Positions 2,169-61,961 of a DNA stretch of 64,000 bases are shown in pieces. Each line of letters begins with the position of its first letter. Position 1 is the first letter of the stretch. The notes below the pieces were generated by a model that was not told the DNA's origin, ran no database searches, and saw only the letters and a list, made by a program, of their open reading frames with translations. This stretch comes from a virus, in the IMG/VR virus record IMGVR_UViG_3300010938_000009, positions 1 to 64,000 of that record. The stretch is one strand, 5' to 3'. The position numbers and the translations under genes are program-made.

Positions 2169-4411
2169 TGGCAACAAAAACGATAGATATTGTAGTTAAA
2201 GTAAGAGACGTAGCTAGTAGACCTTTAAATGAAGTAGAAAAAGGTTTAAAAAGAACTGGAACTGCCGCTAAAAGTGCAGCTATAGATTTTACGCAACTTA
2301 ATAAAACATTATTTTCCGCAACAGCTTTTATAGGATTTTTCTCTAAAGCCTTTGGTGGAGTCCATAGATTAATTTCTGAAGGCGCACAAATTGATAGATT
2401 AGGAACTCAATTTGAAAGAGCTTTTGGAGATTCAGGAAATATTACTAACACTCTAGCTAAGTTTACTGATAATTTTATAGATAAATTTGAAGTTATGCGA
2501 CAAGGTATAGCTTTAAAATCTATGGGTATCGTCAGTAACACAGAACAATTAGCTTCTATAATGGCTAAAGCTGGTACTGCTGCAAAAATGGCTGGACTAG
2601 AATCAGCAGAAGGAGTTAAAAAGTTTGGAGAATTTTTAAAAGACGGATCAGTAAATCACTTACAATTTTTAAATATAATAGCTAAATCAAATCCGGCTTT
2701 ACAAGCTCAGTTAGCAATACTTCAGAAATCTGGAGGAGCTTTAGGTGGAGTACTGTCTACACAAGCAAAATTAGCTATAGGAACTAAATTACTAACAACT
2801 TTAACAAAAGGACAAATGTTTGGTAATATGGATTTAATGGACATTACAGGACACTTAAATCAATCTTTTAAATCCCTAACAACTTCTATAGGTAGATATC
2901 TAGGAGAAGCTTTAAAACCTTTATTAATAAAAACTTTTCAAGTATTTAATTCATTTTCAGAATTTTTAGATAAAATAAAAAAATCTGATAAAAATTTATT
3001 ATTTTTAACTAAAACAGTTTTAGTAGCTACTACAGCAGTAGCAGGATTAGTAGCTATTTTAGGTTCTTTAAGTTTATTAGTAAAATTACTAGGAGTTGCA
3101 GGATTTGGATTACCAGGAATGGTATACGGAATTCTGACTCTAGGGTCCGCTTTTTTAGGGATTACGGGTAAAGCTGATTCTTTTTTAGATAGACTAAAAA
3201 TTATGGGAGCATTTTTTAAAGGGATATGGCAATTATACAGTTCCTTTGATCCAGAAACAGGTTTCGGAAAAATAGACGAAAGTTTAAAAAAGTTTTTAGA
3301 AGAAAAAGGTTTAATGACTTTTGTAGAAACTATAGCAAAAGTTTTTTTAATGGTAAAAACTGTTATAAAAGATACTATAGATGTTTTATCATGGGCAGCA
3401 AAAGGAGTAGATAACTTTTTTGGTGGAATGGCTCAAAAAGTTATAGAAGTTTTAGATATTCTAAAAGGACCTTGGAGTAATTTTTGGGTTAAAGATAACG
3501 CAACAATGATGGAAAAAGCTGCACGATGGATTACAGTAGTAGCAGGTATTGCAGGAAGTATCGCAGCATTAATAGGCGGATTTAAAGTATTTAGTAAAGT
3601 AGCTTCAATGATTCCTGGTATGGGAAGATTTTTTGGCGGACGTGGCCCAAAAGGAACCAAAAATGATCCTCTATATGTTGTAGGATCTGGATTTGGTGGC
3701 CCTATTTTAGACAGCGAAAATTGGGTAGGAATGGGTAAAGGAAAAAAAGGTGGTGGAGGAATAGCAGGTAAGATTGGAGGCTTTTTTAGAGGTTGGAAAG
3801 GACCTGCAGCTTTAATGGCTGCAATGGAATTGCCAGAATTAATAAGCAATCTTTCTTCAGCAAATTCAACACAAGAAATGGTAGGAGCTGGAGCACAATC
3901 AACAGGTAGAATTGGTGGAGCGTTATTAGGAACAAAAGCAGGTGCAGCTCTAGGTGGAATGTTAGGATCAATAATTCCAGGATTAGGAACTATGATCGGA
4001 GCTGGTGTTGGAGGGTTTGTTGGAGGCGCTGCTGGATACGCTTTTGGTGGAAACGCTATGGAATCTTTAGCAAACTGGTTATACGAAAAAGTAACAGGAA
4101 AAGATGCTGATTCTAAAAAATCCGAAGCAACAGTACCAGCAATGCCAGAAACAGAAGAATCTAAAATAGATTATATAGCAAAAGAAATGCAAGCAAGAAC
4201 ATTAGAAGAACAAGAAAAGATCAAATCAGCCACGGAATCAGCCTTAAGATCTAGTTCAGAAGGCGGAAAAACAATATCAGAAGATGAGTGGCGTCACATA
4301 ATGATATTAGTAGGAAAAATAGCTTCTACTAATGAAGAAATGGCTAAAAAAGAAGAAGTAACAACAATATCTTCAAAATACGGTGATAGATCACCAGCTT
4401 TCTCTGGATAA
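2168..4411 (+). CDS. tail tape measure protein
   Basis: Sets tail length and is probably ejected with the DNA. The 747 residues show a typical tape-measure composition. There is an alpha-helical N-terminus, a long hydrophobic central region (two or three membrane-like stretches around residues 280-335, another near 455-475), a Gly-rich stretch near 490-540, and a Gly/Ala zipper segment around 585-640 that could insert in a membrane. The C-terminus is charged and helical. Starts by overlap with the frameshift product stop. At about 1.5 angstrom per residue it predicts a tail of roughly 110 nm, which is inference. Confidence 0.85.
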   Translation: MATKTIDIVVKVRDVASRPLNEVEKGLKRTGTAAKSAAIDFTQLNKTLFSATAFIGFFSKAFGGVHRLISEGAQIDRLGTQFERAFGDSGNITNTLAKFTDNFIDKFEVMRQGIALKSMGIVSNTEQLASIMAKAGTAAKMAGLESAEGVKKFGEFLKDGSVNHLQFLNIIAKSNPALQAQLAILQKSGGALGGVLSTQAKLAIGTKLLTTLTKGQMFGNMDLMDITGHLNQSFKSLTTSIGRYLGEALKPLLIKTFQVFNSFSEFLDKIKKSDKNLLFLTKTVLVATTAVAGLVAILGSLSLLVKLLGVAGFGLPGMVYGILTLGSAFLGITGKADSFLDRLKIMGAFFKGIWQLYSSFDPETGFGKIDESLKKFLEEKGLMTFVETIAKVFLMVKTVIKDTIDVLSWAAKGVDNFFGGMAQKVIEVLDILKGPWSNFWVKDNATMMEKAARWITVVAGIAGSIAALIGGFKVFSKVASMIPGMGRFFGGRGPKGTKNDPLYVVGSGFGGPILDSENWVGMGKGKKGGGGIAGKIGGFFRGWKGPAALMAAMELPELISNLSSANSTQEMVGAGAQSTGRIGGALLGTKAGAALGGMLGSIIPGLGTMIGAGVGGFVGGAAGYAFGGNAMESLANWLYEKVTGKDADSKKSEATVPAMPETEESKIDYIAKEMQARTLEEQEKIKSATESALRSSSEGGKTISEDEWRHIMILVGKIASTNEEMAKKEEVTTISSKYGDRSPAFSG

Positions 4412-4414
4412 AAT

Positions 4415-5170
4415 ATGGCAATAAAACCTTTTAGAAACTCTAATAATTATTTAGATAGTTTAGCATCTCCAGGACAGAAATTAAATATATTTGGAAATAA
4501 AGGAGAAACAACATCCTTTTTAAAAGCCGCTTTAGTCAAAGTAAATGAAGCAGGTTATATTATTATGGGTGATCATGAAGCAATGTTTTTGATAAACCCT
4601 ACAAGTTACGATGAAGCAAAATCAGCTAATTGGGCGCAAAATTCTATACCAGGACAAAGTGATCCTATTTTACAATATGTAAATGGTGGTCCAAGAACAA
4701 TTTCTTTTGATGCTTTAGTAACTGCAGACACTTTACATTTTTCTGCAGAAGCTAAACCTGATAATAATAAGAGTGTTCGAGCTATTGGAGATATAGCTGC
4801 TAAGTTTTTTAAAACAGCTATACCAAATATACCAAAATCAACCAATACACAATCAAGCGCAAACAACTTAGATATTACTCCATATTTAAACTACTATAGA
4901 TCAATGCTATACCCAGAATATGATGATATACTTAATCCTAGAAAATTAGTTAAAAGCCCTCCATTATTAGCATTATTTATTGGTAATACTTTTTCTAATA
5001 TAGATTATGGTAACAGAATTTCTACAAATACTCCTGTTTTTGTACTAACAAATTTAAGAATTAAAATAACAAAACAATTACCAAACTTAACTCCAATGGA
5101 AGCTGTAGTAAGTTTTGAATTAATACAGTATACACTAAAACCTTTTGGTACAGATAATTTTTATCAATAA
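4415..5170 (+). CDS. tail tube initiator / CIS tube-LysM-like baseplate protein
   Basis: Baseplate protein linking the tube to the hub. The central segment reads MFLINPTSYDEAKSANW, then PGQSDPILQYVNGGPRTISF, with an FDALVT strand. This is the signature of the contractile-injection-system tube family (gp48/gp54-like, Afp7-like). The C-terminal part (FVLTNLRIKITKQL ... AVVSFELIQY) fits the second half of that fold. It lies directly upstream of the gp53-like gene with 8 bases between them, the usual order in contractile tails. A LysM domain is not obvious within this protein; the following small gene supplies one. Confidence 0.7.
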   Translation: MAIKPFRNSNNYLDSLASPGQKLNIFGNKGETTSFLKAALVKVNEAGYIIMGDHEAMFLINPTSYDEAKSANWAQNSIPGQSDPILQYVNGGPRTISFDALVTADTLHFSAEAKPDNNKSVRAIGDIAAKFFKTAIPNIPKSTNTQSSANNLDITPYLNYYRSMLYPEYDDILNPRKLVKSPPLLALFIGNTFSNIDYGNRISTNTPVFVLTNLRIKITKQLPNLTPMEAVVSFELIQYTLKPFGTDNFYQ

Positions 5171-5178
5171 GGATATTA

Positions 5179-5496
5179 ATGGCTAATTTTAAAAAACTAA
5201 CAAGATATACTGGTGGAATAGTATCAAAAGATAGAAGTCGTAAAGATTTTTTAATTTTGAGAAACACTCTAGAATTAGAACAATCAGATGGAGATATTTT
5301 TGTTATTATAGATAAAGAAGTCGAAAAAAGACCAGATTTAATAGCTGAAAGAGCTTATGGAATTCCTGATCTATGGTGGGTAATTTATGAATTCAATGAA
5401 ATAAAAGATCCAATGTTTGAACTAAAAGCTGGACAAATAATAAGAATTCCAGAACTACAAAGAGTTTTAGATTCTATAGAGGCTTTGAATAATTAA
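5179..5496 (+). CDS. baseplate wedge gp53-like / LysM protein
   Basis: Small baseplate protein of 105 residues. The sequence RPDLIAERAYGIPDLWWVIYE, then NEIKDPMFELKAGQIIRIP matches T4 gp53 and short LysM-type baseplate proteins: a YG-x-x-x-LWWVI core followed by N-x-I-x-DP and an L-x-x-G-x-x-I-x-IP strand. RBS AAGGATATTA precedes the ATG. Its stop codon overlaps the start of the hub gene by one base (TAATG), implying translational coupling. Confidence 0.8.
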   Translation: MANFKKLTRYTGGIVSKDRSRKDFLILRNTLELEQSDGDIFVIIDKEVEKRPDLIAERAYGIPDLWWVIYEFNEIKDPMFELKAGQIIRIPELQRVLDSIEALNN

Positions 5497-30113: not shown

Positions 30114-30362
30114 TTACCTACCACATATAGCATGATAACTTAATTCCCCTACTTTAGCGAAGTACTTTAAACAAGGAGAATTACGGTAGATCTGCTTACA
30201 TCTACTTTTACAATAGTTTAAAGTATTATTATCGTGTTCTGTCCAAGCTGTATCAGTATTATTAACTACTGTAGTACTAGGACAGGTATTACTAGGAGTT
30301 ACTTTAGTAGTAGTTGTGGTTGTAGTACAACTAATAGCTAGTAATAGTAATAATTTAGTCAT
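30114..30362 (-). CDS. small lipoprotein-like protein
   Basis: 82 residues. MTKLLLLLAISC is a short hydrophobic N-terminus ending in a lipobox-like L-A-I-S-C, followed by a Thr run and a Cys-rich domain (YCKSRCKQIYRNSPC ... ICGR) with about five more cysteines. A periplasm-facing lipoprotein is the simplest reading. Overlaps the thyX stop by 8 bases. Confidence 0.55.
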   Translation of the reverse strand: MTKLLLLLAISCTTTTTTTKVTPSNTCPSTTVVNNTDTAWTEHDNNTLNYCKSRCKQIYRNSPCLKYFAKVGELSYHAICGR

Positions 30363-30996
30363 TTAATAATACCTTTGTACTTTCAGGAAACTTATCCTGT
30401 AGTATCTGTTTAATTTGTTCAGCTATAATACGTACTTCTTTTTGAGCGTGAGGGTCTAGTCTTAGTTTTAAAAAATGTACAAAATTACGTAAGTTACCCG
30501 TCATATAAAATTTAGTCATTAAATTCTGAGGTAATACCGCTCTGGCTTGTTCCCTTGATAATCCATTTTTTAACAAGTCCTCATATAGTTGCAAGGACCG
30601 TTGACAATGAGCGTAAAAAGCGGCGTACATAGTTTTAGCTCTAGTTAGGTCTAAACTGCCTTCTGAAGCTTGTTTATTGTTTTTTGATTGTTCTCTAAAG
30701 TCGTCAATAGGCGGAATATAAAACTCGATATTTTCAGCAGTATATCTGCGACTAATTTCATTAAAAGACATAGTTCTGTGCCTATGTATTTGACTTCTAA
30801 TATATAAAGGACACTCTATAATTACTGTGAGCACATTAGCTTCAAAAGGAGTCATGTGTTGATTATCAGCTAAATATTTAAGTAGTTTAAGATCTTTATC
30901 ATCTAGCTTATCTTTTTGTTTACCAAAACTAATTCTAGCAGCATTAACTGGTCGAAGGTCGTCTCCCATGTGATCGATATATGTGACTTTAAGCAT
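30355..30996 (-). CDS. thyX: flavin-dependent thymidylate synthase ThyX
   Basis: Makes dTMP from dUMP with FAD, NADPH and methylenetetrahydrofolate. The ThyX motif RHRTMSFNEISRRY begins at R72 (RHR-x-x-S-x-NE-x-S-x-RY). Further conserved regions are ADNQHMTPFE and AVLPQNLMTKFYMTGNLRN, then LRLDPHAQKEVR. Full length at 213 residues. I start at ATG 30996 because GGAGG lies 5 bases upstream; a longer frame beginning with TTG at 31014 has no RBS. It overlaps the upstream lipoprotein stop (TAATG). Works with NrdJ, Dut and the dNMP kinase in the same operon. Confidence 0.95.
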   Translation of the reverse strand: MLKVTYIDHMGDDLRPVNAARISFGKQKDKLDDKDLKLLKYLADNQHMTPFEANVLTVIIECPLYIRSQIHRHRTMSFNEISRRYTAENIEFYIPPIDDFREQSKNNKQASEGSLDLTRAKTMYAAFYAHCQRSLQLYEDLLKNGLSREQARAVLPQNLMTKFYMTGNLRNFVHFLKLRLDPHAQKEVRIIAEQIKQILQDKFPESTKVLLND

Positions 30997-31160
30997 TAAA
31001 ACCTCCACGCCCAACTAGGTCCGACATAACAATATTCATGTTTACCCATTTCATCCACCTTACAACCTATAGCTAGTCTATCAGGACTTCGGCAACTTGT
31101 TGTTAATAACAGTAGTATTATCATTACTATTATTATATGTATTATTAGTATCCTTTTCAT
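30996..31160 (-). CDS. small lipoprotein, 54 residues
   Basis: ATG 31160 to TAA 30996. MKRILIIHIIIVMIILLLL then TTSCRSPD is a hydrophobic signal ending in a convincing lipobox (L-T-T-S-C). The mature part has two more cysteines and ends EYCYVGPSWAWRF. RBS AAGGA eight bases upstream, coupled to thyX by TAATG. It overlaps, in a different frame, the 3' half of the 56-residue gene at 31081. An o-spanin-like or surface-exclusion role is conceivable but unproved. Confidence 0.6.
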   Translation of the reverse strand: MKRILIIHIIIVMIILLLLTTSCRSPDRLAIGCKVDEMGKHEYCYVGPSWAWRF

Positions 31161-31386: not shown

Positions 31387-32031
31387 TTAAATGATCTTGT
31401 TTATCTTTTGAAATAACTCCTCCAAAGTACCTTTATTATCGATTACTTCGTTAAACTCGTAATCGTCTAAATCTCTTTCACTAGCGTCAGTACTAGGACT
31501 ACTATCAAATCTATTAATTCTTACAGTAACTAGTTCCTTACCAAAAGCTGCTCGTAGTTGTTCTACTTCAGATTTATAACGTAGGTCACTTATAACAAAT
31601 TTATCACTTATACCGTTAGCTCCACAAACATCATTAGCATAAGATTCGTAAGCTCTAGTACTTTTAATACTACTAATTACTGACTCTACCCAATAACTAG
31701 AGTTTACTGCTCGCTTTATTGAACCTTCTAGTATACATAAGGCTCTAGGAGTCCAATATAGTTTACCTTCTAGTTCAGCAAACTCTCCTTTAAGTATATC
31801 GTGAATAGCTGCTGTAAACTTATCTTTTGATTCAACTGGGTATTCTAATAAAGGTAGTTCTTTAAGATTTTGTTCGTATACGCTTGCGTAAGGTATTTTA
31901 TAAGTATCGGCTACCATATTTTTAAGTTTGTCGGCAAAAGCCTCTCTTTTAAAACTATGTTCTTTAACTAGATAATTAGCTACAGTATCTTTTCCAGAAC
32001 CTTTATAACCACTTACAGCAATTACTTTCAT
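31387..32031 (-). CDS. deoxynucleoside monophosphate kinase (T4 gp1-like)
   Basis: Phosphorylates dNMPs for DNA synthesis. 214 residues with a P-loop SGYKGSGKDTVANYL at residues 7-21, an AFADKLKNMVA helix, ISDLRYKSEVEQLR (substrate and lid region) and SERDLDDYEFNEVIDNKGTLEEL at the end, matching phage dNMP kinases. Its ATG overlaps the TGA of the upstream gene (ATGA). Together with ThyX, Dut and NrdJ it completes a precursor pathway. Confidence 0.85.
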   Translation of the reverse strand: MKVIAVSGYKGSGKDTVANYLVKEHSFKREAFADKLKNMVADTYKIPYASVYEQNLKELPLLEYPVESKDKFTAAIHDILKGEFAELEGKLYWTPRALCILEGSIKRAVNSSYWVESVISSIKSTRAYESYANDVCGANGISDKFVISDLRYKSEVEQLRAAFGKELVTVRINRFDSSPSTDASERDLDDYEFNEVIDNKGTLEELFQKINKII

Positions 32032-32996
32032 TGTTCACCTTTCAATACTGTATTGCCCTTATAATATAAGTAAGGGGCCATATAGTACATTATAACAGGT
32101 ATTCCTAGTTTGTCAACTAGTTTTTCTAATTCTTCCCAACCTTCTTTAGTAGCGAATACAAAATCTCCATGATACCTAATAACTTTAAATTTGTCGTTAG
32201 ATAACTTATCTATAATTAAGTCTCCATTAGGTTTACCGTTATTAATACTATAAGGTTGTAGTTCATTTTTAGTTACTATTAGTTCTTTTTTTGTGTCAGC
32301 ATTATGAGCTTCATCTATTATAACAGTTTTAGCAGGTATACCTTTAAGGTTAAGTCTAAATAGTGTGTAAACTAGTGTAGCTTTACGTAATAGGTTTTCA
32401 AACTTAACTGCTAGTCCTTTACCTGGTTTTAAATAGAAATGTAGTAAATGCGGTTTATCCTTAAGTAATTCTCTAGTTCCGTTAAAGTATTCAAAGTAGA
32501 CTTTTTTAGCAGCTGATTCATTAATACCTGTATGAGCGCCTCTAGTTACTATTAAGTTTTTACCGTAATTAGCTCTTAATAAAGTATCGGTATTCTTAAC
32601 TCTTATATTAGAATATTTACTTTCTTCGTTAACTTCGTTAACTAAAGCGTAAAATACTGGTTTTTTAGTACCTACTAACACGTCATCAATACTAGCTATA
32701 GTTTTAGCGTTATCTTCGTCAGAGTTTTCCCACTGACCTACTAATACAAAATACCTATAACCCCACATAACTGCTAAGTCTGCGAAATCTTTAATAGCAG
32801 ATTTATTGTCGTCATTAACCCTAATAAAGTTAGCCCCGAAGTCGTATATTTGACTATGATCTCCAGATTTATTAGGAGCTGTAACTCCTCTAACAAATCC
32901 TTCTCCGCCCCCTACTAATCTTTTTAGAATAGGAGCTGGCAACATTAGTAGAAAACTACCTACAATATAAGCAAAAAGTTTATGTAATATATACAT
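32028..32996 (-). CDS. membrane-anchored hypothetical protein, possible TIM-barrel hydrolase
   Basis: 322 residues. The N-terminus (MYILHKLFAYIVGSFLLMLP) is a membrane anchor or uncleaved signal. The body reads like an alpha/beta barrel: GANFIRVND, YFVLVGQW, VFYALVNEVNEES, TVIIDEAHNA and LGIPVIMYYMAP could be successive strands, and the N-E after VFYALV recalls glycosidase acid/base residues. That reading is speculative. I start at ATG 32996, nine bases after GGAG, rather than 33011. Confidence 0.5.
   Translation of the reverse strand: MYILHKLFAYIVGSFLLMLPAPILKRLVGGGEGFVRGVTAPNKSGDHSQIYDFGANFIRVNDDNKSAIKDFADLAVMWGYRYFVLVGQWENSDEDNAKTIASIDDVLVGTKKPVFYALVNEVNEESKYSNIRVKNTDTLLRANYGKNLIVTRGAHTGINESAAKKVYFEYFNGTRELLKDKPHLLHFYLKPGKGLAVKFENLLRKATLVYTLFRLNLKGIPAKTVIIDEAHNADTKKELIVTKNELQPYSINNGKPNGDLIIDKLSNDKFKVIRYHGDFVFATKEGWEELEKLVDKLGIPVIMYYMAPYLYYKGNTVLKGEQ
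32089..32116 (-). promoter_or_regulatory. possible internal promoter before the dNMP kinase gene
   Basis: Minus strand TTGACA (32111-32116), 16-base spacer, TATAAT (32089-32094). Perfect hexamers but inside coding sequence near the end of the 32028 gene. Would transcribe the kinase and thyX. Confidence 0.45.
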
Positions 32997-33526: not shown

Positions 33527-33878
33527 TTAGTTTTCTTAATATAAACTCTTTGTCCCATCCATTCTTTACAAGGTAAATCATCCACATAACTAATTGGTTT
33601 ACTTATTATTAAGTCTACGTATTCTTCTAACTGTAAAATTCTAACTACTTCTTTAGCTCAATCTCAACCGCCAGCGCTCCACACTACTATCTTTTTACCT
33701 TCAGATTTATACCTCTTTAATAGATTAATATGTTTTGATGAGGTATCAAGTTATAAATACATCTACTTTGTGGATCATTAAATTCTAAAGTATTACCTTC
33801 TTCCGATTTATCTCCTTATATAACTAGCGTATTATCACAATCACAATAAATTACTGGATCATCCTCTAATATAAACAT
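33523..33878 (-). pseudogene. decayed HAD-type phosphatase
   Basis: From ATG 33878 the frame reads FILEDDPVIYCDCDNTLVI then TAA; DCDNT is HAD motif I (DxDxT). After a frame change the rest reads HINLLKRYKSEGKKIVVWSAGG, then TGA-Asp-TGA, then AKEVVRILQLEEYVDL, KPISYVDD and ends at a TGA overlapping the next ATG. WSxGG-x-x-WA and KP-x-x-Y-x-DD are motifs II and III of phage HAD hydrolases. Three in-frame stops plus a shift make it a pseudogene, though start and stop coupling to neighbours is preserved. Confidence 0.75.
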
Positions 33879-34087
33879 TAGTCTTTATCCTCTAAAGCGA
33901 AAGGGGCTTCGTGTATAGTACTATTCCAGTAAATAACACAACCTTCTTTTTTAATATCTTTTCTATCAGGTACTAAATAACTTTGGTAAGTATCAGGTAC
34001 TCCTAAGTATCTAGCACAAGTAGCCCTTACAGGGCAAACTTTAGTACCACATTTACTAATACCTTGACATAAACTATAATCTGGCAT
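33878..34087 (-). CDS. small Cys-rich conserved hypothetical protein
   Basis: 69 residues with five cysteines in the order LCQGISKCGTKVCPVRATCARY then GCVIYW. The first four are spaced for a zinc site. YQSYLVPD after it is a feature of similar small phage proteins. RBS AGGAAG. Its TAA overlaps the ATG of the decayed HAD gene. Confidence 0.55.
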   Translation of the reverse strand: MPDYSLCQGISKCGTKVCPVRATCARYLGVPDTYQSYLVPDRKDIKKEGCVIYWNSTIHEAPFALEDKD

Positions 34088-34158: not shown

Positions 34159-34536
34159 CTACTTACCCTCATTAATATATTTATATAATGACTCAAGCTG
34201 TTCTTTACTAAATTTATACTTAGGCATCATATTAGTACTACGTCTAGGCTTATAACCTTCAGGGTACTTACCTTCGTTTACTTTCAAGTTAATTAAAGCT
34301 TGACTACTAGGTTTAAGTTCAGGACCTACAGCACCTACTTTACTTGTATCACTATTATGACAATGAGTGCAAGTTTTATTATAAATAAACTTACCTTTTT
34401 CTAAAGTAGGAATTTCATTAGGTTTGGGTATATCGTGCGTATGATCTTTGTGTTCATTAATATTATATCTAATCAAACTTAAAATTACTATTAAAGTTAC
34501 CACGAATAATACAAATCTAACTATTATAGCTATCAT
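34159..34536 (-). CDS. membrane-anchored monoheme c-type cytochrome
   Basis: Electron-transfer protein, unusual for a phage. 125 residues: an N-terminal transmembrane segment (residues 3-22) followed by a periplasm-type domain. CTHCH at 56-60 is the covalent heme motif; MMPKY near 103-107 supplies the distal Met ligand at the normal distance; TLEKGKFIYNKTC and GAVGPELKPS are the usual class I cytochrome context, and a C-terminal helix (FSKEQLESLYKYINEG) closes the fold. It would be matured by the host Ccm system after export. Adjacent to a two-TM protein (34517) that could be a partner. Confidence 0.85.
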   Translation of the reverse strand: MIAIIVRFVLFVVTLIVILSLIRYNINEHKDHTHDIPKPNEIPTLEKGKFIYNKTCTHCHNSDTSKVGAVGPELKPSSQALINLKVNEGKYPEGYKPRRSTNMMPKYKFSKEQLESLYKYINEGK

Positions 34537-34744
34537 ATTTATGATTTAACCTCTTTTTATTAAGTTGTATTACTATTATTAAAGCTCCTATAAAAGCTAT
34601 GGCTGTAGGAGCAGTAGCTACAGGTAAACCTAGTTTAAATATAGCTAGAAGTAGTAACTCTTTAATAAAGTATTGTAAAGTGTAGTATATCATTAAAAAT
34701 TGAAAAAGCAACATTAAACTAAAGATATATTTATTATTCAACAT
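34517..34744 (-). CDS. small membrane protein with two transmembrane segments
   Basis: 75 residues. Hydrophobic stretches at about 8-40 and 44-62 (SLMLLFQFLMIYYTLQYF, PTAIAFIGALIIVIQL) and a basic/polar C-terminal tail. It overlaps the cytochrome gene start by 20 bases and the preceding gene by 11, so the three are translationally coupled (RBS GGAGGG). A holin-like or cytochrome-docking function is possible; neither is shown. Confidence 0.6.
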   Translation of the reverse strand: MLNNKYIFSLMLLFQFLMIYYTLQYFIKELLLLAIFKLGLPVATAPTAIAFIGALIIVIQLNKKRLNHKYDSYNS

Positions 34745-34943
34745 ATAGTCCCTCCGTTAATTCTGTAACTAACATGAAATTAGCTAGGGGATTTAAATGT
34801 TTCCATTGTAAACTTAAAGTGCTTCCATTAAGAATTACTTCGAATCTATACTCATTACAAACTTTTACTATGGCTTTTTCATATTTATTATTACTATTTA
34901 AATAAATTATTTTATCACCTGGTTTAAAATTTAAAGGTTTCAT
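34734..34943 (-). CDS. small hypothetical protein with KOW/SH3-like character
   Basis: 69 residues: MKPLNFKPGDKIIYLNSNNK, YEKAIVKVCN, LNPLANFMLV. The F-x-x-GD-x-hydrophobic start is typical of small SH3-like barrels. RBS AAGGAG. First gene after the tRNA in the leftward direction. Confidence 0.5.
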   Translation of the reverse strand: MKPLNFKPGDKIIYLNSNNKYEKAIVKVCNEYRFEVILNGSTLSLQWKHLNPLANFMLVTELTEGLYVE

Positions 34944-34964: not shown

Positions 34965-35039
34965 TGGTAGCGGTGGTAGGAATCGAACCTACTTTCTTCA
35001 GATTATGAGCCTGACGACTTACTACTTGTCCTCACCGCA
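34965..35039 (-). tRNA. tRNA-Met (anticodon CAU), atypical
   Basis: Minus-strand cloverleaf of 75 bases with encoded CCA. Acceptor strand TGCGGTG pairs with CACCGCT except for a U1-U72 mismatch. Anticodon arm TCAGG-CTCATAA-TCTGA gives CAU. Variable loop AGAAA, T arm GTAGG-TTCGATT-CCTAC, discriminator A. The D arm is short (GAC/GTC, 9-base loop) and lacks the usual G18-G19; position 8 is A, not U. Three G-C anticodon-stem pairs of initiator tRNA are absent, so it is an elongator Met or, if lysidine-modified, an Ile2 tRNA. Confidence 0.85.
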
Positions 35040-35045
35040 ATATAA

Positions 35046-35075
35046 AGTATACTATAAGAATAACTACGTTGTCAA
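35046..35075 (-). promoter_or_regulatory. sigma-70 promoter of the tRNA
   Basis: Minus strand TTGACA (35070-35075), 18-base spacer, TATACT (35046-35051). The predicted +1 is within a base of the mature tRNA 5' end at 35039, so almost no 5' leader is expected. Confidence 0.75.
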
Positions 35076-35081
35076 GTATAA

Positions 35082-35119
35082 AAATAAAAAAAGACTAGCA
35101 ACTTTATAGTTACTAGTCT
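35082..35119 (-). terminator. rho-independent terminator after the ribonucleotide reductase gene
   Basis: Minus strand stem AGACTAG plus AACT (35092-35119, one A-C mismatch, TTAT-type loop) followed by TTTTTTTATTTTT (to 35082). Separates the nrdJ transcript from the tRNA promoter. Confidence 0.85.
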
Positions 35120-35150
35120 TATTATAAGTATAGTTAGTATTTCTAAGGGT

Positions 35151-36929
35151 TTAGGTTATTTCACATATTCCTGAAGTACAGTCTGTTTCTACAGCTTTAA
35201 TAACTTCATTATTATATTTAAGTTTAGCTTCTTCTAAAGTTAAAGCTTTTAGTGGAGGTTCGTGTACAACTCCGTTATCATCTACATAACCTCTTGTATT
35301 CTCTCTATAAAAAGTAATACCTTTAATATAAGGTAAATACTCTAACCATAGTTTAGACATATCTTCAATAGGGTAGTCTTCAGGTATATTAATAGTTTTT
35401 GATACTGCGTTATCTACGTGTTTTTGTATAATTCTTTGTACTTCTATATGGTCTTTTACACTTAAGTCTCTAGCGCCTTTAAAATGTTCTACAGATCTAT
35501 TTTGTTCTAAGAATTGTGCAAATAGAGGGTGGTAAACTAACTCCACTTTTCTAGAATCTCCATCCCAATAACGCCTTTCATAAGCAGGAGCAAACATAGG
35601 TTCGATACCACTAGAACAATTACCTGATAGAATGCTAACAGTCCCAGTGGGAGCTTGAGTAAGAATAGCACAATTTCTAATACCATGCTCAGCAATTAAA
35701 GACTTAATTTTAGAAGGCATTCGTTTAACAAATCCTGATTCAATATGTAAATCTGGTCTACAAGCAGGAAAGGCTCCTTTTTCTATAGCTAACATAATAC
35801 TAGCTTCGTAAGCTACTTTAGAAATGAATCTGTAAAGTTTATCTATAAATTTATTACCTTCTTCACTACCATATTTATAATCTAATAAAGCTAAAGTGTC
35901 AGCTAACCCTGTAGTTCCTAAACCTATTCTTCTAAGTTTGTGGGATTTCTCTTTCATTTCAGGTAAAGGATAAGAGTTAACTGTTAGTACGTTATCTAAA
36001 AAACGAACAGCACTACGAACAGTGTCTCCTAAAAGCGCATAATTAACTTCCCCTTCAGTTATAAATCTAGGTAGTACAATATGCCCTAAACAACAACAAT
36101 CAAAAGCACTAAGAGCTATTTCTCCGCAAGGATTTGTGGTAACTAGGTCTTCGATATAGTAAATATTAGACTCACTTAAAACTAATTCCCAATTTAAAAA
36201 TCCAGGTTCTGCGGAATTATAAGCATTAGTAACAATTTTATTCCATAAATCTCTAGCTTTTATAATTCTTTTATATTTACCTTTCCAAGATAATTCCCAA
36301 TCTAAATCTTTTTCTACTGCTTTAATAAATTCTTTTGTTCTTTTACTTCTCACACTAATATTAGCGTGAGTTAGTTGTCCTTTTTGTAGTTTAGCATCTA
36401 AAAATTCTTCTATGTCAGGATGATCTAAATCCAATGAAAACATTAAAGCTACTCTTCTTTGACCTCCAGCCTTTACAGGCTTGGCACAACCATCCATTAA
36501 TTTCATTAATTCAACAGGACCAGGAGCTTCACCTTTTTGTTGGTTTATTATTGCTCCTCTAGGTCTTATATCAGAAAACTCATCACCGCAGCCGCCGCCA
36601 GTCATAGAAGTTATTATCATATTTTTAGCGGAATTTCCCCAACCTTCTTTTGAATCTTTATTAGGATCTAAAACAAAACAATTTAATAACTGTGGATTAG
36701 TTCTACCTGAATTATACCAAATTCTTCCACCTGGTACAAATAAATTTTTTATTAATATATCTTTAAATTTTTCTTCGTATATCTTTTGTTTATCTGGAAT
36801 TTCAGCTATAGCCATTTGTCTAGAAACTCTAGAACAAGCTTCTGACCAAGTTTCTTCTGTTGTAAAAGCATATCTTTTTTTGAATATATCTAATGAAAGT
36901 CCTTGAGGCTCGTAAAGATTATCAGACAT
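35151..36929 (-). CDS. nrdJ: class II (adenosylcobalamin) ribonucleotide reductase
   Basis: Reduces ribonucleotides to deoxyribonucleotides without an R2 subunit, using B12. 592 residues in the single-chain NrdJ layout: GGRIWYNSG and NCFVLDPN near the start, TGGGCGDEFSDIRP and PVKAGGQRRVALMF, TTNPCGEIALSAFDCC (NPCGE active-site loop), LGTTGLADTLALL, APTGTVSILSGNCSSGIEPMF, and a C-terminal redox pair in DCTSGICEIT. No nrdA/B or activase lies nearby, supporting class II. Host or environment must supply cobalamin. RBS TAGGAGATATA. Ends at a strong terminator. Confidence 0.93.
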   Translation of the reverse strand: MSDNLYEPQGLSLDIFKKRYAFTTEETWSEACSRVSRQMAIAEIPDKQKIYEEKFKDILIKNLFVPGGRIWYNSGRTNPQLLNCFVLDPNKDSKEGWGNSAKNMIITSMTGGGCGDEFSDIRPRGAIINQQKGEAPGPVELMKLMDGCAKPVKAGGQRRVALMFSLDLDHPDIEEFLDAKLQKGQLTHANISVRSKRTKEFIKAVEKDLDWELSWKGKYKRIIKARDLWNKIVTNAYNSAEPGFLNWELVLSESNIYYIEDLVTTNPCGEIALSAFDCCCLGHIVLPRFITEGEVNYALLGDTVRSAVRFLDNVLTVNSYPLPEMKEKSHKLRRIGLGTTGLADTLALLDYKYGSEEGNKFIDKLYRFISKVAYEASIMLAIEKGAFPACRPDLHIESGFVKRMPSKIKSLIAEHGIRNCAILTQAPTGTVSILSGNCSSGIEPMFAPAYERRYWDGDSRKVELVYHPLFAQFLEQNRSVEHFKGARDLSVKDHIEVQRIIQKHVDNAVSKTINIPEDYPIEDMSKLWLEYLPYIKGITFYRENTRGYVDDNGVVHEPPLKALTLEEAKLKYNNEVIKAVETDCTSGICEIT

Positions 36930-44824: not shown

Positions 44825-47800
44825 TTATTTACTTTCTGCCCAATTATCTGAAATTACGGGTTCAGCTTTTAAGGGTACGCTGATTTTAATAGTATTTTCC
44901 ATAGTTTCTTTCATAATTTTACTGGCTATTTCGGATTGGTCTTCCCTTACTATACAAGTAACTTCATCGTGAACCATAAGTAAAATATCTGCGTCGATAT
45001 TATTAGCTTTAAAAGCTTTTGTTAAAGCTATCATAGATCTATTTATTATAGTTGCAGCTAAGCCTTGAATTTTAAAATTTTTAGCATTATTTAGAAGATT
45101 TTTATACTCTCTTCTTACCTTTTCTAGACCTTTTTTAGCTGCCCATTTATAATCTAAAATCTCACTATCATTATACATTGCTGCAGTTAATCTAGCTTGT
45201 TTTAAATGTCTTACTCTACCAAATTCCGTTTTTACAAAACCATATTTTTTAGCTTCATAATTACATTGATTCATATATTTTTTTAAATTAGGGTAAGCTT
45301 CTAAATAATCATTAATAATTCTATGAGCTTCTTGCCAAGATACGTTCAGTATATCCTTCACTCTTGAAGCTTCAGCACCATAAACTACTGCTAAGCAAAA
45401 AGCCTTACTTTTTTGTCTAGCTTCTTTTTCATGTAAACCTAGATAATTAGGATCTTTTTTATTAGCGCTATAATCACTTAAATTAAAAACATCAATAGCA
45501 ATACGACTATATAGGTCTTCTCCATTTCTAAACACATTTCTGAGAGACTCATCGCCTGAAACATGAGCAAAACATATCGGTTCCAGACTATTATAATCGG
45601 CATTAAGTATTTTATAACCTTCTGGAGCTATAAAACCTTTTCTAATTTGATTAGAATATTTTAAAACTATTTCAGATATGCCAGAATCTTCGTCTTTTAT
45701 TCGAGGTAAATTTTGACAGTTACCTGTTATGAAGGTATCTGAACCTCTACGAGCTATAAACATAGAACTAGGAACAGAAACACACCAAACCTTTTCACTA
45801 GAGATCTCTGAATTTATTTCAGCATTTGCTGTTAAAGAGAAATTTCTTTTAGTTATTTGTAACTCATAATTATTATTATTAGCTATTGTTTTATAAATTC
45901 TTTTGTGTGCTCGCCAACCTTCCATAACACACAAGGCTTGTATTAAATCGACATTTAATTCTTCATTAGAACTATAGTTACATTTTCTAGTACTAAGATC
46001 ATCCCATTCAAATATCTCTTTTAATACTGTCTTTCTTTCTTCTGAACCTAAAGTTACCCAATTATTAGGAAATATTTTTTCATAACCAATAATATTAATG
46101 ATAGCGTCTTTACAACCACTAACTAAAATTTCATACATACCATTTTTAGATTTATCTTCTACTAAGAATTTAAAATTATTTAAAATCTCAAGTAACCTAT
46201 TATATTTTCTTTTTTTATAAAATCTAAATCTTATTTTAGAAGAATCTTTTCTTATTTCTGAATCCGCTTGACACGCTACTACAAACCTTAACCAATTTAA
46301 ATCATAACCTTGAGGAATTGTTAAAGTGTGTATTCCATGATAAATTCTAGCATCTTTTGGAAAATTTTTTGCAGGTTTTTCGCACATTTTATTGTTATTA
46401 TGTCTATCAAAGTAGATAATTCTATGATTATCTGTCAGTCTCATATTAAGGTGTTGATTTTTAATAGTAATAATAGTTTTATTATTATTTTCTGATAAAT
46501 AAATATTATCTGGTGTTTCAAAAATTATTTTATCACCATCAAAACTAGCTATTTCGGTATATTTATTTATTTCGTTATATTTTTTAAAACCTTTATTCGT
46601 AAGAATTTCTGTATCCAAACTCAAACAATTTGGATTCCTACTACTATATCTACCTGAAGTAGTACCAAATTGTAGCATACTCGCATAAATATAACCATCT
46701 ATTTGTCTTTCTAAAATACCTTCTACATAAGTTGATAATAGTTTATTAAGTTTCTTATAATCTAATAATTTCTTTATAGCACTTTTACGTTTAGCTACTA
46801 ATTCTAGGAAATCATCGTCAATTTTAGGTTTACCTGTTTCAGTTTTCTCTTGAGGATTTAACTTCCATACCTTACATATCAAGTATGCTAAGTGATCATT
46901 ACTAGACAAATTAAACACGTACTTTCTATTCTGATCAGCTAACAGCATATTTCGTTGTACAGCCTGTAATATAGAATCTGCTAGTTTATAAGGACTATTA
47001 CTTATTATACTATCGTAAAAGTCTGAGTGAATAGGAGTTAGTTCTTTTTGTTTCTCTATAGCTTTCTTAGCTAGAGTTACTTTACCTGTCTTAACACTTA
47101 CTGGTAAAGGTATATTAAGATGTTCTGCTAGTTTTACTGGAAATAAACCACTAGTTTTGATAGGATAGTCCTTATCTAGTAACTCTTGTTCAAAATTAGC
47201 TACTAGAGGTTTAATTTCTTGCATTATTTCAGTTTCCAGTTTAAGTATTTCTTGAGTAATTTCAGTTTTTAGGTTATTAAAGTGATCTAAGTCTATTTTA
47301 AAACCTTTACGTTTCATATTAATAGTAACGTGCTTATATAAAGGCATTACCTCATCCACGTAAAATAGGTTTACTAGGTCTTCTTCTATAAGTCTTGACT
47401 CATATATATTAAATAACATTATGGTTAAAATAACGTCATGACAACAATATTCTGATAGGATTTCTGTGTCGGCCAAATGTATGTCTTTTTGAGTCTTGAC
47501 GAATTTTCCGCCGTTAGCTAATACGTTTTCTTTTAGTTTATCTTGAGCTTTATCGGCCCAATCTCCTAGCTCTTTAGTAGCTATTTCTTTTAGAGCAAAG
47601 GGAGGTTCTTCTTCTAAAGTATGTTTTTGTAGGATAGTATCTGAATAAATATAGTCTGTTAAGTTTATACCTAAATTATTCTCTATAACTAGAATATCAT
47701 ATATAATGTTGTGACCAATAAGTCTAAATTTAGAACAGGTATCTTCAAGCCATTGACTTATAGTTATTTGTTGTTCTTTAGTCCAAGTTTCTGAACCATC

Positions 47801-48004
47801 TTTATTGCGCCACACAATATAGAAAGCCTTCTTTTCATTAAAGCATAAACCTATACCGTATAATAAGGCTATCTTCTCTATTTCAGAATTAGATTCTACA
47901 TCTAATACTATATTTTGAGAATTTACTTGATTAGTGTATCTTACTAATTTATTAAAGTCTTCTATATTTGAAATGGTGTAAGTACTAAATTCTGGTTTAA
48001 TCAT
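44825..48004 (-). CDS. family A DNA polymerase containing an intein
   Basis: Replicative polymerase with proofreading. 1059 codons, of which 460-762 are an intein, leaving 756 residues. The 3'-5' exonuclease domain has LDVESNSEIE, LIGHNIIYD and CCHDVILTI. The polymerase domain has RYSSRNPN-(intein)-CQNLPR, motif A ILNADYNSLEP, motif B RQKSKAFCLAVVYGAEA and motif C LMVHDEVTC. The substitution of DYS-x-IE-x-R by DYNSLEP is within phage variation. The promoter upstream predicts a transcript that begins on the start codon. Activity requires intein splicing, which restores SSRNPN-CQNLPR. Confidence 0.93.
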   Translation of the reverse strand: MIKPEFSTYTISNIEDFNKLVRYTNQVNSQNIVLDVESNSEIEKIALLYGIGLCFNEKKAFYIVWRNKDGSETWTKEQQITISQWLEDTCSKFRLIGHNIIYDILVIENNLGINLTDYIYSDTILQKHTLEEEPPFALKEIATKELGDWADKAQDKLKENVLANGGKFVKTQKDIHLADTEILSEYCCHDVILTIMLFNIYESRLIEEDLVNLFYVDEVMPLYKHVTINMKRKGFKIDLDHFNNLKTEITQEILKLETEIMQEIKPLVANFEQELLDKDYPIKTSGLFPVKLAEHLNIPLPVSVKTGKVTLAKKAIEKQKELTPIHSDFYDSIISNSPYKLADSILQAVQRNMLLADQNRKYVFNLSSNDHLAYLICKVWKLNPQEKTETGKPKIDDDFLELVAKRKSAIKKLLDYKKLNKLLSTYVEGILERQIDGYIYASMLQFGTTSGRYSSRNPNCLSLDTEILTNKGFKKYNEINKYTEIASFDGDKIIFETPDNIYLSENNNKTIITIKNQHLNMRLTDNHRIIYFDRHNNNKMCEKPAKNFPKDARIYHGIHTLTIPQGYDLNWLRFVVACQADSEIRKDSSKIRFRFYKKRKYNRLLEILNNFKFLVEDKSKNGMYEILVSGCKDAIINIIGYEKIFPNNWVTLGSEERKTVLKEIFEWDDLSTRKCNYSSNEELNVDLIQALCVMEGWRAHKRIYKTIANNNNYELQITKRNFSLTANAEINSEISSEKVWCVSVPSSMFIARRGSDTFITGNCQNLPRIKDEDSGISEIVLKYSNQIRKGFIAPEGYKILNADYNSLEPICFAHVSGDESLRNVFRNGEDLYSRIAIDVFNLSDYSANKKDPNYLGLHEKEARQKSKAFCLAVVYGAEASRVKDILNVSWQEAHRIINDYLEAYPNLKKYMNQCNYEAKKYGFVKTEFGRVRHLKQARLTAAMYNDSEILDYKWAAKKGLEKVRREYKNLLNNAKNFKIQGLAATIINRSMIALTKAFKANNIDADILLMVHDEVTCIVREDQSEIASKIMKETMENTIKISVPLKAEPVISDNWAESK
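45719..46627 (-). mobile_element. intein inserted in the DNA polymerase (303 residues)
   Basis: Begins with Cys (CLSLDTEILTNKGFK, block A), has ITIKNQHLNMRLTDNHRIIY (block B with the H-x-x-x near T-x-x-H) and ends VWCVSVPSSMFIARRGSDTF, then ITGN followed by extein Cys+1. The usual penultimate His is Gly (TGN), seen in some active inteins. The middle contains LNWLRFVVACQADSEI and LKEIFEWDDL, which look like the two DOD/LAGLIDADG motifs of a homing endonuclease, with the first G replaced (ADS). Insertion is at the conserved SSRNPN-x-QNLPR substrate-binding site. Confidence 0.88.
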
Positions 48005-61383: not shown

Positions 61384-61961
61384 TCAAATTTTTGTTCTCA
61401 CCAGGCGGAACCCCACACTACGGCTGTGGAGAATGGGGTAGTCCCTATTGCAAAAAGCAGAACGCAAGCCCTGAGGGTCGCTGCACCAACCGCCCCCATG
61501 GAAAACACGAAGGGAACCACTATAAATACTAGAGGTCCATTCCCAAACGTTTCCGTGCATATCGTATAATCCCCATTTATTAGGTTTTTTAAGCCTACAG
61601 CTTGAGTTTTATGATTCGAGTTCTCATAAAACCAAACATAGTTAAATAATTCTTCTACGTCGTTGCCGAAGCAATACTCCGTCGTAGAACCAGCTCTGCA
61701 ACAATACTCCCACTCTTCTTCTGAAGGTAAACGGTAAATGTAATCTTTTTGTTTTAGATTTAATTGCTGAATTAAATCTAAGCAAGCGTTATAACTAACT
61801 TGTTCTATTGGATTACTTGTGCCTTTAAAATAACTGGGATTGTTTTGCATAAAAAACTCCCAAAGCTTTTGCGTAAATTGAGTAGTTTGAATTTCAAAAG
61901 CTTTGTTAGGGATTTTAACAAAATCAAACTCATATAACTGTTTTAATAATTCTTCATTCAT
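61384..61961 (-). CDS. FGE-sulfatase / C-type-lectin-fold variable protein, read through a -1 shift at an A-tract
   Basis: The zero frame from ATG 61961 gives FEIQTTQFTQKLWEFFMQNN, NPIEQVSYNA, YRLPSEEEWEYCCRAGSTTE and FNYVWFYENSNHKTQAVGLK, the front of a formylglycine-generating-enzyme-like domain, then loses homology and stops at 61398. A -1 shift at A AAA AAC (61584-61590) restores PNKWGLYDMHGNVWEW, LRVFHGGGW and SVGFRLVR, the exact C-terminal landmarks, ending at TGA 61384 (192 residues total). The last third has a DGR-type variable-region look. Either programmed frameshifting or on/off switching by tract length. No signal peptide. Confidence 0.72.
61402..61500 (-). other. probable DGR variable region (VR)
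   Basis: In the restored frame, between HGGGW and VGFRLV, fifteen residues (C S D, G, F C N R D Y, I L H S, S) occupy positions that in DGR targets are AAY-coded in the template. Fourteen of their codons end in C or T, ten in C, in a genome that prefers A/T at third positions. The fixed residues between (P Q, L R S A, P, R) and the end VGFRL with GC-rich codons match the conserved backbone of FGE-fold DGR variable proteins. No template repeat or reverse transcriptase lies in the window. Confidence 0.6.
61584..61590 (-). promoter_or_regulatory. A AAA AAC slippery heptamer / homopolymer switch
   Basis: Minus strand TTA AAA AAC in the zero frame; -1 slippage continues with CCT AAT AAA TGG and restores the FGE-like reading. 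One more A (seven instead of six) would give GLKKPNKWG directly, so a length change of the tract would also switch the gene on. Confidence 0.65.

Follow-up and report, generated by a model that had tools for sequence, protein, structure and literature searches.

Cells normally supply the electron carrier cytochrome c themselves, and a phage bringing its own copy raises the questions of whether the gene is truly viral and what its product would do in an infected host. Both are posed by a small open reading frame (ORF) in the window, i.e. the whole 64,000-nucleotide stretch of DNA analysed here, which covers positions 1 to 64,000 of the IMG/VR virus record IMGVR_UViG_3300010938_000009.

The cytochrome gene and its phage context

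The earlier note, made from the sequence alone, had described a membrane-anchored class I cytochrome c encoded by a phage, and the ORF that it reported, with strand unstated, is present on the minus strand and encodes the protein MIAIIVRFVLFVVTLIVILSLIRYNINEHKDHTHDIPKPNEIPTLEKGKFIYNKTCTHCHNSDTSKVGAVGPELKPSSQALINLKVNEGKYPEGYKPRRSTNMMPKYKFSKEQLESLYKYINEGK (Table 1). The features on which that description relied, namely a transmembrane helix, a CTHCH heme motif and the Met of MMPKY at the right distance, were all found within the 125 residues, MMPKY occupying residues 103-107 and the spacing from His60 to Met104 being 44 residues. In an alignment of 13 viral cytochromes, C56, C59 and H60 are invariant and the M104 column is nearly so, and GPEL is comparable to the GP.L of other class I cytochromes c. 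The anchor helix is flanked by Arg on both sides, so that charge does not firmly fix its topology. The protein passes the Pfam cut-offs of PF00034 (Cytochrom_C; E 9e-8) and PF13442 (Cytochrome_CBB3; 27.5 bits against 27.0), so that the cytochrome motif is not there by chance. The best NCBIfam matches are of the carrier type and lie below their curated cut-offs; they are QcrC (NF050122; 33.5 bits against 200), the diheme cytochrome c of the actinobacterial bc1 complex, and the Bacillus-type cytochrome c550 (CccA; NF045773; 27.5 bits against 125). In the PDB, the sequence matches bacterial bc1 complexes, namely their cytochrome c subunits (best E 7.7e-5), a match to c553 falling below significance. 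Together, these scores identify a class I cytochrome c without an assignable named subfamily. With c550, which aligns over residues 9-121, the protein shares a length of about 120 aa and the layout of an N-terminal anchor followed by one class I heme domain, whereas it differs in being phage-borne and in its His/Asp-rich linker. QcrC, the best match in both NCBIfam and PDB sequences, has a similar first heme domain, but it possesses two such domains and forms an integral part of its complex, whereas the phage protein has a single CXXCH.

Structure prediction, proposed earlier as a check, was supportive but not decisive. AlphaFold2 gave a poor fold from the single sequence (pLDDT 55); when the 12 other viral cytochromes were aligned with it, pLDDT was 67, helices were placed at residues 44-59, 76-87 and 111-124, including the expected N- and C-terminal helices, and the first 20 residues reached a pLDDT of about 95. 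Eight of the nine best PDB fold matches to this low-confidence model are cytochromes c or cytochrome c subunits (the best being a nitric oxide reductase chain, photosystem II cytochrome c550, cz and c5), all with E of at least 1.5 and none significant. No viral model similar to that of the cytochrome was found in BFVD.

Table 1. Features of the cytochrome locus and of the cytochrome gene of a related phage (G006). Positions are those of the window unless a locus name precedes them.
Feature	Position	Strand	Basis
Membrane-anchored monoheme class I cytochrome c, 125 aa	34159..34536	-	PF00034, 33.8 bits vs cut-off 21.3
N-terminal transmembrane anchor, residues 3-23	34468..34530	-	sequence; AlphaFold2 helix 2-30
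His/Asp-rich linker EHKDHTHD, residues 28-35	34432..34455	-	sequence
Heme c attachment motif CTHCH, residues 56-60	34357..34371	-	sequence
GPEL, residues 71-74, Gly-Pro loop past heme motif	34315..34326	-	sequence
Met103-Met104; Met104 predicted axial ligand	34225..34230	-	alignment column; spacing to His60
75-aa protein, two predicted membrane helices, overlapping cytochrome ORF by 20 bases	34517..34744	-	ORF list
69-aa ORF, first protein gene of unit	34734..34943	-	ORF list
tRNA-Met (CAT)	34965..35039	-	ARAGORN
Candidate promoter of tRNA/cytochrome unit, sigma-70-like TTGACA-N18-TATACT, 11/12	35046..35075	-	consensus match only
Intrinsic terminator-like hairpin between RNR gene and unit	35091..35120	-	sequence
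Class II (adenosylcobalamin) ribonucleotide reductase (RNR), flanking anchor gene	35151..36929	-	NrdJ_Z, 455 bits vs cut-off 400
69-aa Cys-rich small protein, downstream of cytochrome	33878..34087	-	phrog_20586, E 7e-4
Deoxynucleoside monophosphate (dNMP) kinase, other slot anchor	31387..32031	-	PF21448, phrog_139
ThyX thymidylate synthase	30355..31014	-	PF02511, 169.5 bits
G006 lipoprotein cytochrome, 98 aa, CMSCH and NMP, between RNR and dNMP kinase	L070:12318-12614	-	ORF reading

The IMG/VR record measures 104,283 bases, of which the first 55 are identical to the last 55, and a separate contig (G001, 99.6% identical) crosses the end join, so that the phage genome is complete. The phage is contractile-tailed, and its products include a major head protein, tail sheath, baseplate wedge, tape measure, UvsX-like recombinase and DnaB-like helicase. 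A search with the major capsid protein returned 53 related viral loci, and the long relatives G003, G006 and G009 have a common gene order around the cytochrome, running from the dNMP kinase through a Holliday-junction-type nuclease to the polymerase and primase-helicase. In GC content (0.29), GC3 and codon usage the cytochrome gene matches the other phage genes, and its reported embedding among overlapping phage genes is borne out by the bases that it shares with the upstream ORF. A bacterial gene brought onto the phage contig by host contamination or misassembly, the objection foreseen in the earlier note, is very improbable: no second contig was found over the cytochrome locus, G001 covering other parts only, but the identical ends of a complete genome, syntenic phage genes on both sides, overlapping genes, phage-like codons and the lack of host-type neighbours all contradict it. 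As regards auxiliary metabolic genes, the locus is surrounded by phage genes in a genuine phage genome. Gene, motifs, anchor and phage context are all apparent from the sequence, and the ORF is almost certainly a genuine phage gene coding for an anchored class I cytochrome c.

Past the class II RNR, the order is hairpin, promoter-like TTGACA-N18-TATACT, tRNA-Met, 69-aa ORF, two-helix 75-aa ORF and cytochrome, and this slot belongs to a nucleotide-metabolism block with RNR, dNMP kinase and ThyX. Promoter-like sites in the region number 43, against 46 in shuffled sequence, so the candidate promoter is put forward on its quality and position. A perfect extended -10 sigma-70-like sequence (12/12) was also observed at 32089-32116 (-), within a 327-aa ORF upstream of the dNMP kinase. 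The two-helix neighbour, for which no family was recognised in Pfam or PHROG profiles and no homologue among the 12 relatives compared, may be a partner of the cytochrome, to judge from adjacency. No redox enzyme adjoins the cytochrome gene among the neighbouring ORFs searched with Pfam; the phage showed no further CXXCH protein with an anchor, so the cytochrome would depend on host partners. Elsewhere in the window, an FGE-sulfatase domain protein (PF03781, 33.7 bits) is encoded at 61398-61961 (-), overlapped upstream by an ORF that by eye is lytic transglycosylase-like. Apparent inteins were read in the DNA polymerase at 44825-48004 (-), in a von Willebrand-like protein (L004:1-1290, -) and in the RNRs of two relatives (L066:8243-11131, - and L080:2043-4853, -).

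Cytochromes c in related phages and other viral contigs

The cytochrome gene is sporadic within this phage group: neither a homologue of the window cytochrome nor its Pfam family was found in 36 other viral records (35 reached by way of the capsid protein, the other by way of the RNR; mostly fragments, several of 95-117 kb). When every ORF combining CXXCH with a hydrophobic stretch at the N-terminus was read, one more cytochrome emerged, in the related phage G006, where it is present in two assemblies (Table 1). It scores weakly against Cytochrome_CBB3 (17.7 bits, E 0.0045, cut-off 27) and aligns with the window cytochrome only around the heme motif, which points either to strong divergence or to independent acquisition.

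According to the earlier note, c-type cytochromes are rarely seen in phages, a statement that agrees with phage genome records and less well with viral contigs. A tblastn search of 50,697 phage records with the window cytochrome, that of G006 and three others gave no convincing cytochrome c. A weak match of phrog_2358 (E 0.05) and one of Pseudomonas phage PspYZU05 to c553 (E 0.06, beginning past the heme motif) were judged to be due to chance. The family phrog_36206 matches Pseudomonas c551, as does no phage record, and its members are possibly prophage-flank genes. No close homologue of the window cytochrome, viral or cellular, came up when viral contigs, genome contigs and phage records were scanned; a degenerate heme-motif scan gave 52 stretches and, upon confirmation against the window cytochrome, no relative; plasmids matched distant cytochromes only; and a host sought in genome contigs through the major capsid protein was not found.

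Other viral contigs do, however, encode cytochromes c. A generic heme-site pattern scan yielded 13 loci, and all six of the proteins scanned from them pass a Pfam cytochrome cut-off. L208-L216 (including L208:7776-8225) form a recurrent membrane-anchored family, most members having 145-149 aa and an anchor or signal at the N-terminus; an additional CXXXC segment lies between anchor and heme domain. Terminase genes occur in two of the family records (G041 and G045), and polymerase and helicase genes are also found in family records. A dN/dS of 0.09-0.22 between contigs, calculated over 12 contig pairs (the last pairs, after two nearly identical contigs, being left out), points to purifying selection. 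The terminase match in G045 (4074-5462; the record of L214) crosses four stop codons (two TGA and two TAA), possibly reflecting an intron, a frameshift or a broken gene. L206 lies in a 191-kb record with a terminase and a T4-type capsid gene, and L205 is accompanied by a terminase and an FtsZ-like gene. The 78.7-kb record of L204 encodes, among phage-type neighbours, a PQQ dehydrogenase of the methanol/ethanol family (699.7 bits against a cut-off of 480), and its cytochrome best matches a methanol-metabolism cytochrome (74 bits, below the cut-off of 162). The dehydrogenase at L204:5742-7553 (-) and the methanol-type c cytochrome at 4210-4647 (+) are accompanied by a protein that by eye is DoxX-like and membrane-bound, a possible phage-borne methanol oxidation module. 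Neither a phrog_2 terminase nor a Gp23 capsid was found in this record, so its phage status rests on the neighbours and on IMG/VR. Among distant viral contigs, membrane-anchored proteins of caspase-like appearance (HSGHGT...CDTCHSG, by eye) were observed adjoining a nuclease gene at L156:8442-9392 and L172:3690-4610.

Proposed role in host respiration and its alternatives

It is proposed, at a probability of roughly 0.5, that the protein is a periplasmic, membrane-tethered electron carrier acting in host respiration during infection. An effect on host respiration, as put forward in the earlier note, is plausible. Export, heme loading, redox partner and benefit to the phage would most likely be as follows. 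The N-terminal helix would serve as a signal anchor kept in the inner membrane, with the heme domain exported to the periplasmic side, where the host cytochrome c maturation (Ccm) machinery would load heme on CTHCH, with ligation by His60 and Met104. The product would be a tethered one-electron carrier, in the manner of Bacillus c550 or of the first heme domain of QcrC, which may receive electrons from a host quinol-oxidising complex or a periplasmic dehydrogenase and deliver them to a terminal oxidase or reductase of the host. In this way it would keep up or redirect electron flow and proton-motive force at a time when host functions are declining and energy is required for dNTP synthesis. 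The heme domain should face the periplasm, which makes direct participation in RNR reduction unlikely. The carrier reading is supported by the Pfam scores, by the carrier-type NCBIfam and bc1-complex PDB matches, by the completeness of the genome and the phage-like codon usage of the gene, by its place behind a promoter-like sequence and a tRNA in the nucleotide-metabolism block, by the position of the G006 cytochrome in the same slot between RNR and dNMP kinase, by the small exported monoheme cytochromes of other viral contigs, one family of which is under purifying selection, and by the pairing in L204 of a methanol/ethanol dehydrogenase with a methanol-type cytochrome. It is weakened by the lack of a close homologue and of an adjoining redox enzyme, the low-confidence model, the sporadic occurrence of the gene and the charge-ambiguous topology.

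The protein might alternatively deliver electrons to NO, peroxide or another oxidant, as a NorC-like subunit or the partner of a peroxidase, in a periplasmic shunt or detoxification route that protects the infected cell and does not conserve energy. The membrane-anchored NorC subunit likewise combines an anchor with a monoheme domain, and the nitric oxide reductase chain that is the top fold match is of its size; this match (E 1.5) carries no statistical weight, however, and NorC is encoded with NorB, whereas neither NorB nor a peroxidase or other reductase adjoins the phage gene, making such a function unlikely. As a further alternative, the protein could act as a decoy, possibly in concert with the overlapping two-helix protein; by diverting or blocking electron transfer in the host it could lower the energy state of the cell, time lysis or exclude other phages. 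The G006 cytochrome gene also overlaps a membrane-protein gene, in its case for a single-TM protein, but the neighbours in the two phages are not alike, and the intactness of every heme-ligand motif suggests that a functional redox centre has been retained, so that a decoy is improbable. That the gene is a recently acquired passenger without function for the phage would fit its absence, by homology, from the 36 other records and the variability of the slot; it is nonetheless doubtful in view of the intact frame, phage-adapted codon usage and candidate promoter of the unit, the presence of another, different cytochrome in the corresponding slot of G006 and the purifying selection on another viral cytochrome family.

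Relation to known phage electron carriers

Plastocyanin (petE) and other small electron carriers are encoded by cyanophages and are presumed to sustain host electron flow. Electron-transport proteins of cyanophages are treated in PMC5082946. These carriers serve phototrophs and contain copper or iron-sulfur, whereas the present one is a c-type cytochrome from a phage group in which no photosynthesis genes were seen. Phage SoxD is a reported product with cytochrome c motifs, the first of which is missing from one of two contigs and the second from both (PMC8190135), and a viral ccoP is among the genes listed in a review (PMC12713726); these are enzyme or oxidase subunits, whereas here a complete stand-alone carrier is encoded in a complete genome. 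No cytochrome carriers were observed in the phages of a study on viral nitrogen-cycle genes (PMC8115048), and no stand-alone cytochrome c of a phage was described in the literature searched, the coverage of which was incomplete. Such carriers therefore appear largely undescribed in phages, although phage electron-transport genes are already known as a kind.

The occurrence of different cytochrome versions in several phage lineages suggests that some phages maintain or rewire host respiration while replicating. It may tentatively be proposed that small monoheme cytochromes c, tethered or exported, were gained repeatedly and independently by diverse phages of respiring bacteria (represented here by the window phage, G006, the L208-type family, L205, L206 and, with a PQQ alcohol dehydrogenase, L204) and that they serve to maintain or rewire the periplasmic electron transfer of the host, as a general strategy of respiratory takeover that would parallel the photosynthesis genes of cyanophages. 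Photosynthetic electron-transport genes are well known in phages and stand-alone respiratory cytochrome c carriers are not; should these genes be functional, the electron flow of ordinary respiring bacteria would come under the direct influence of their phages.
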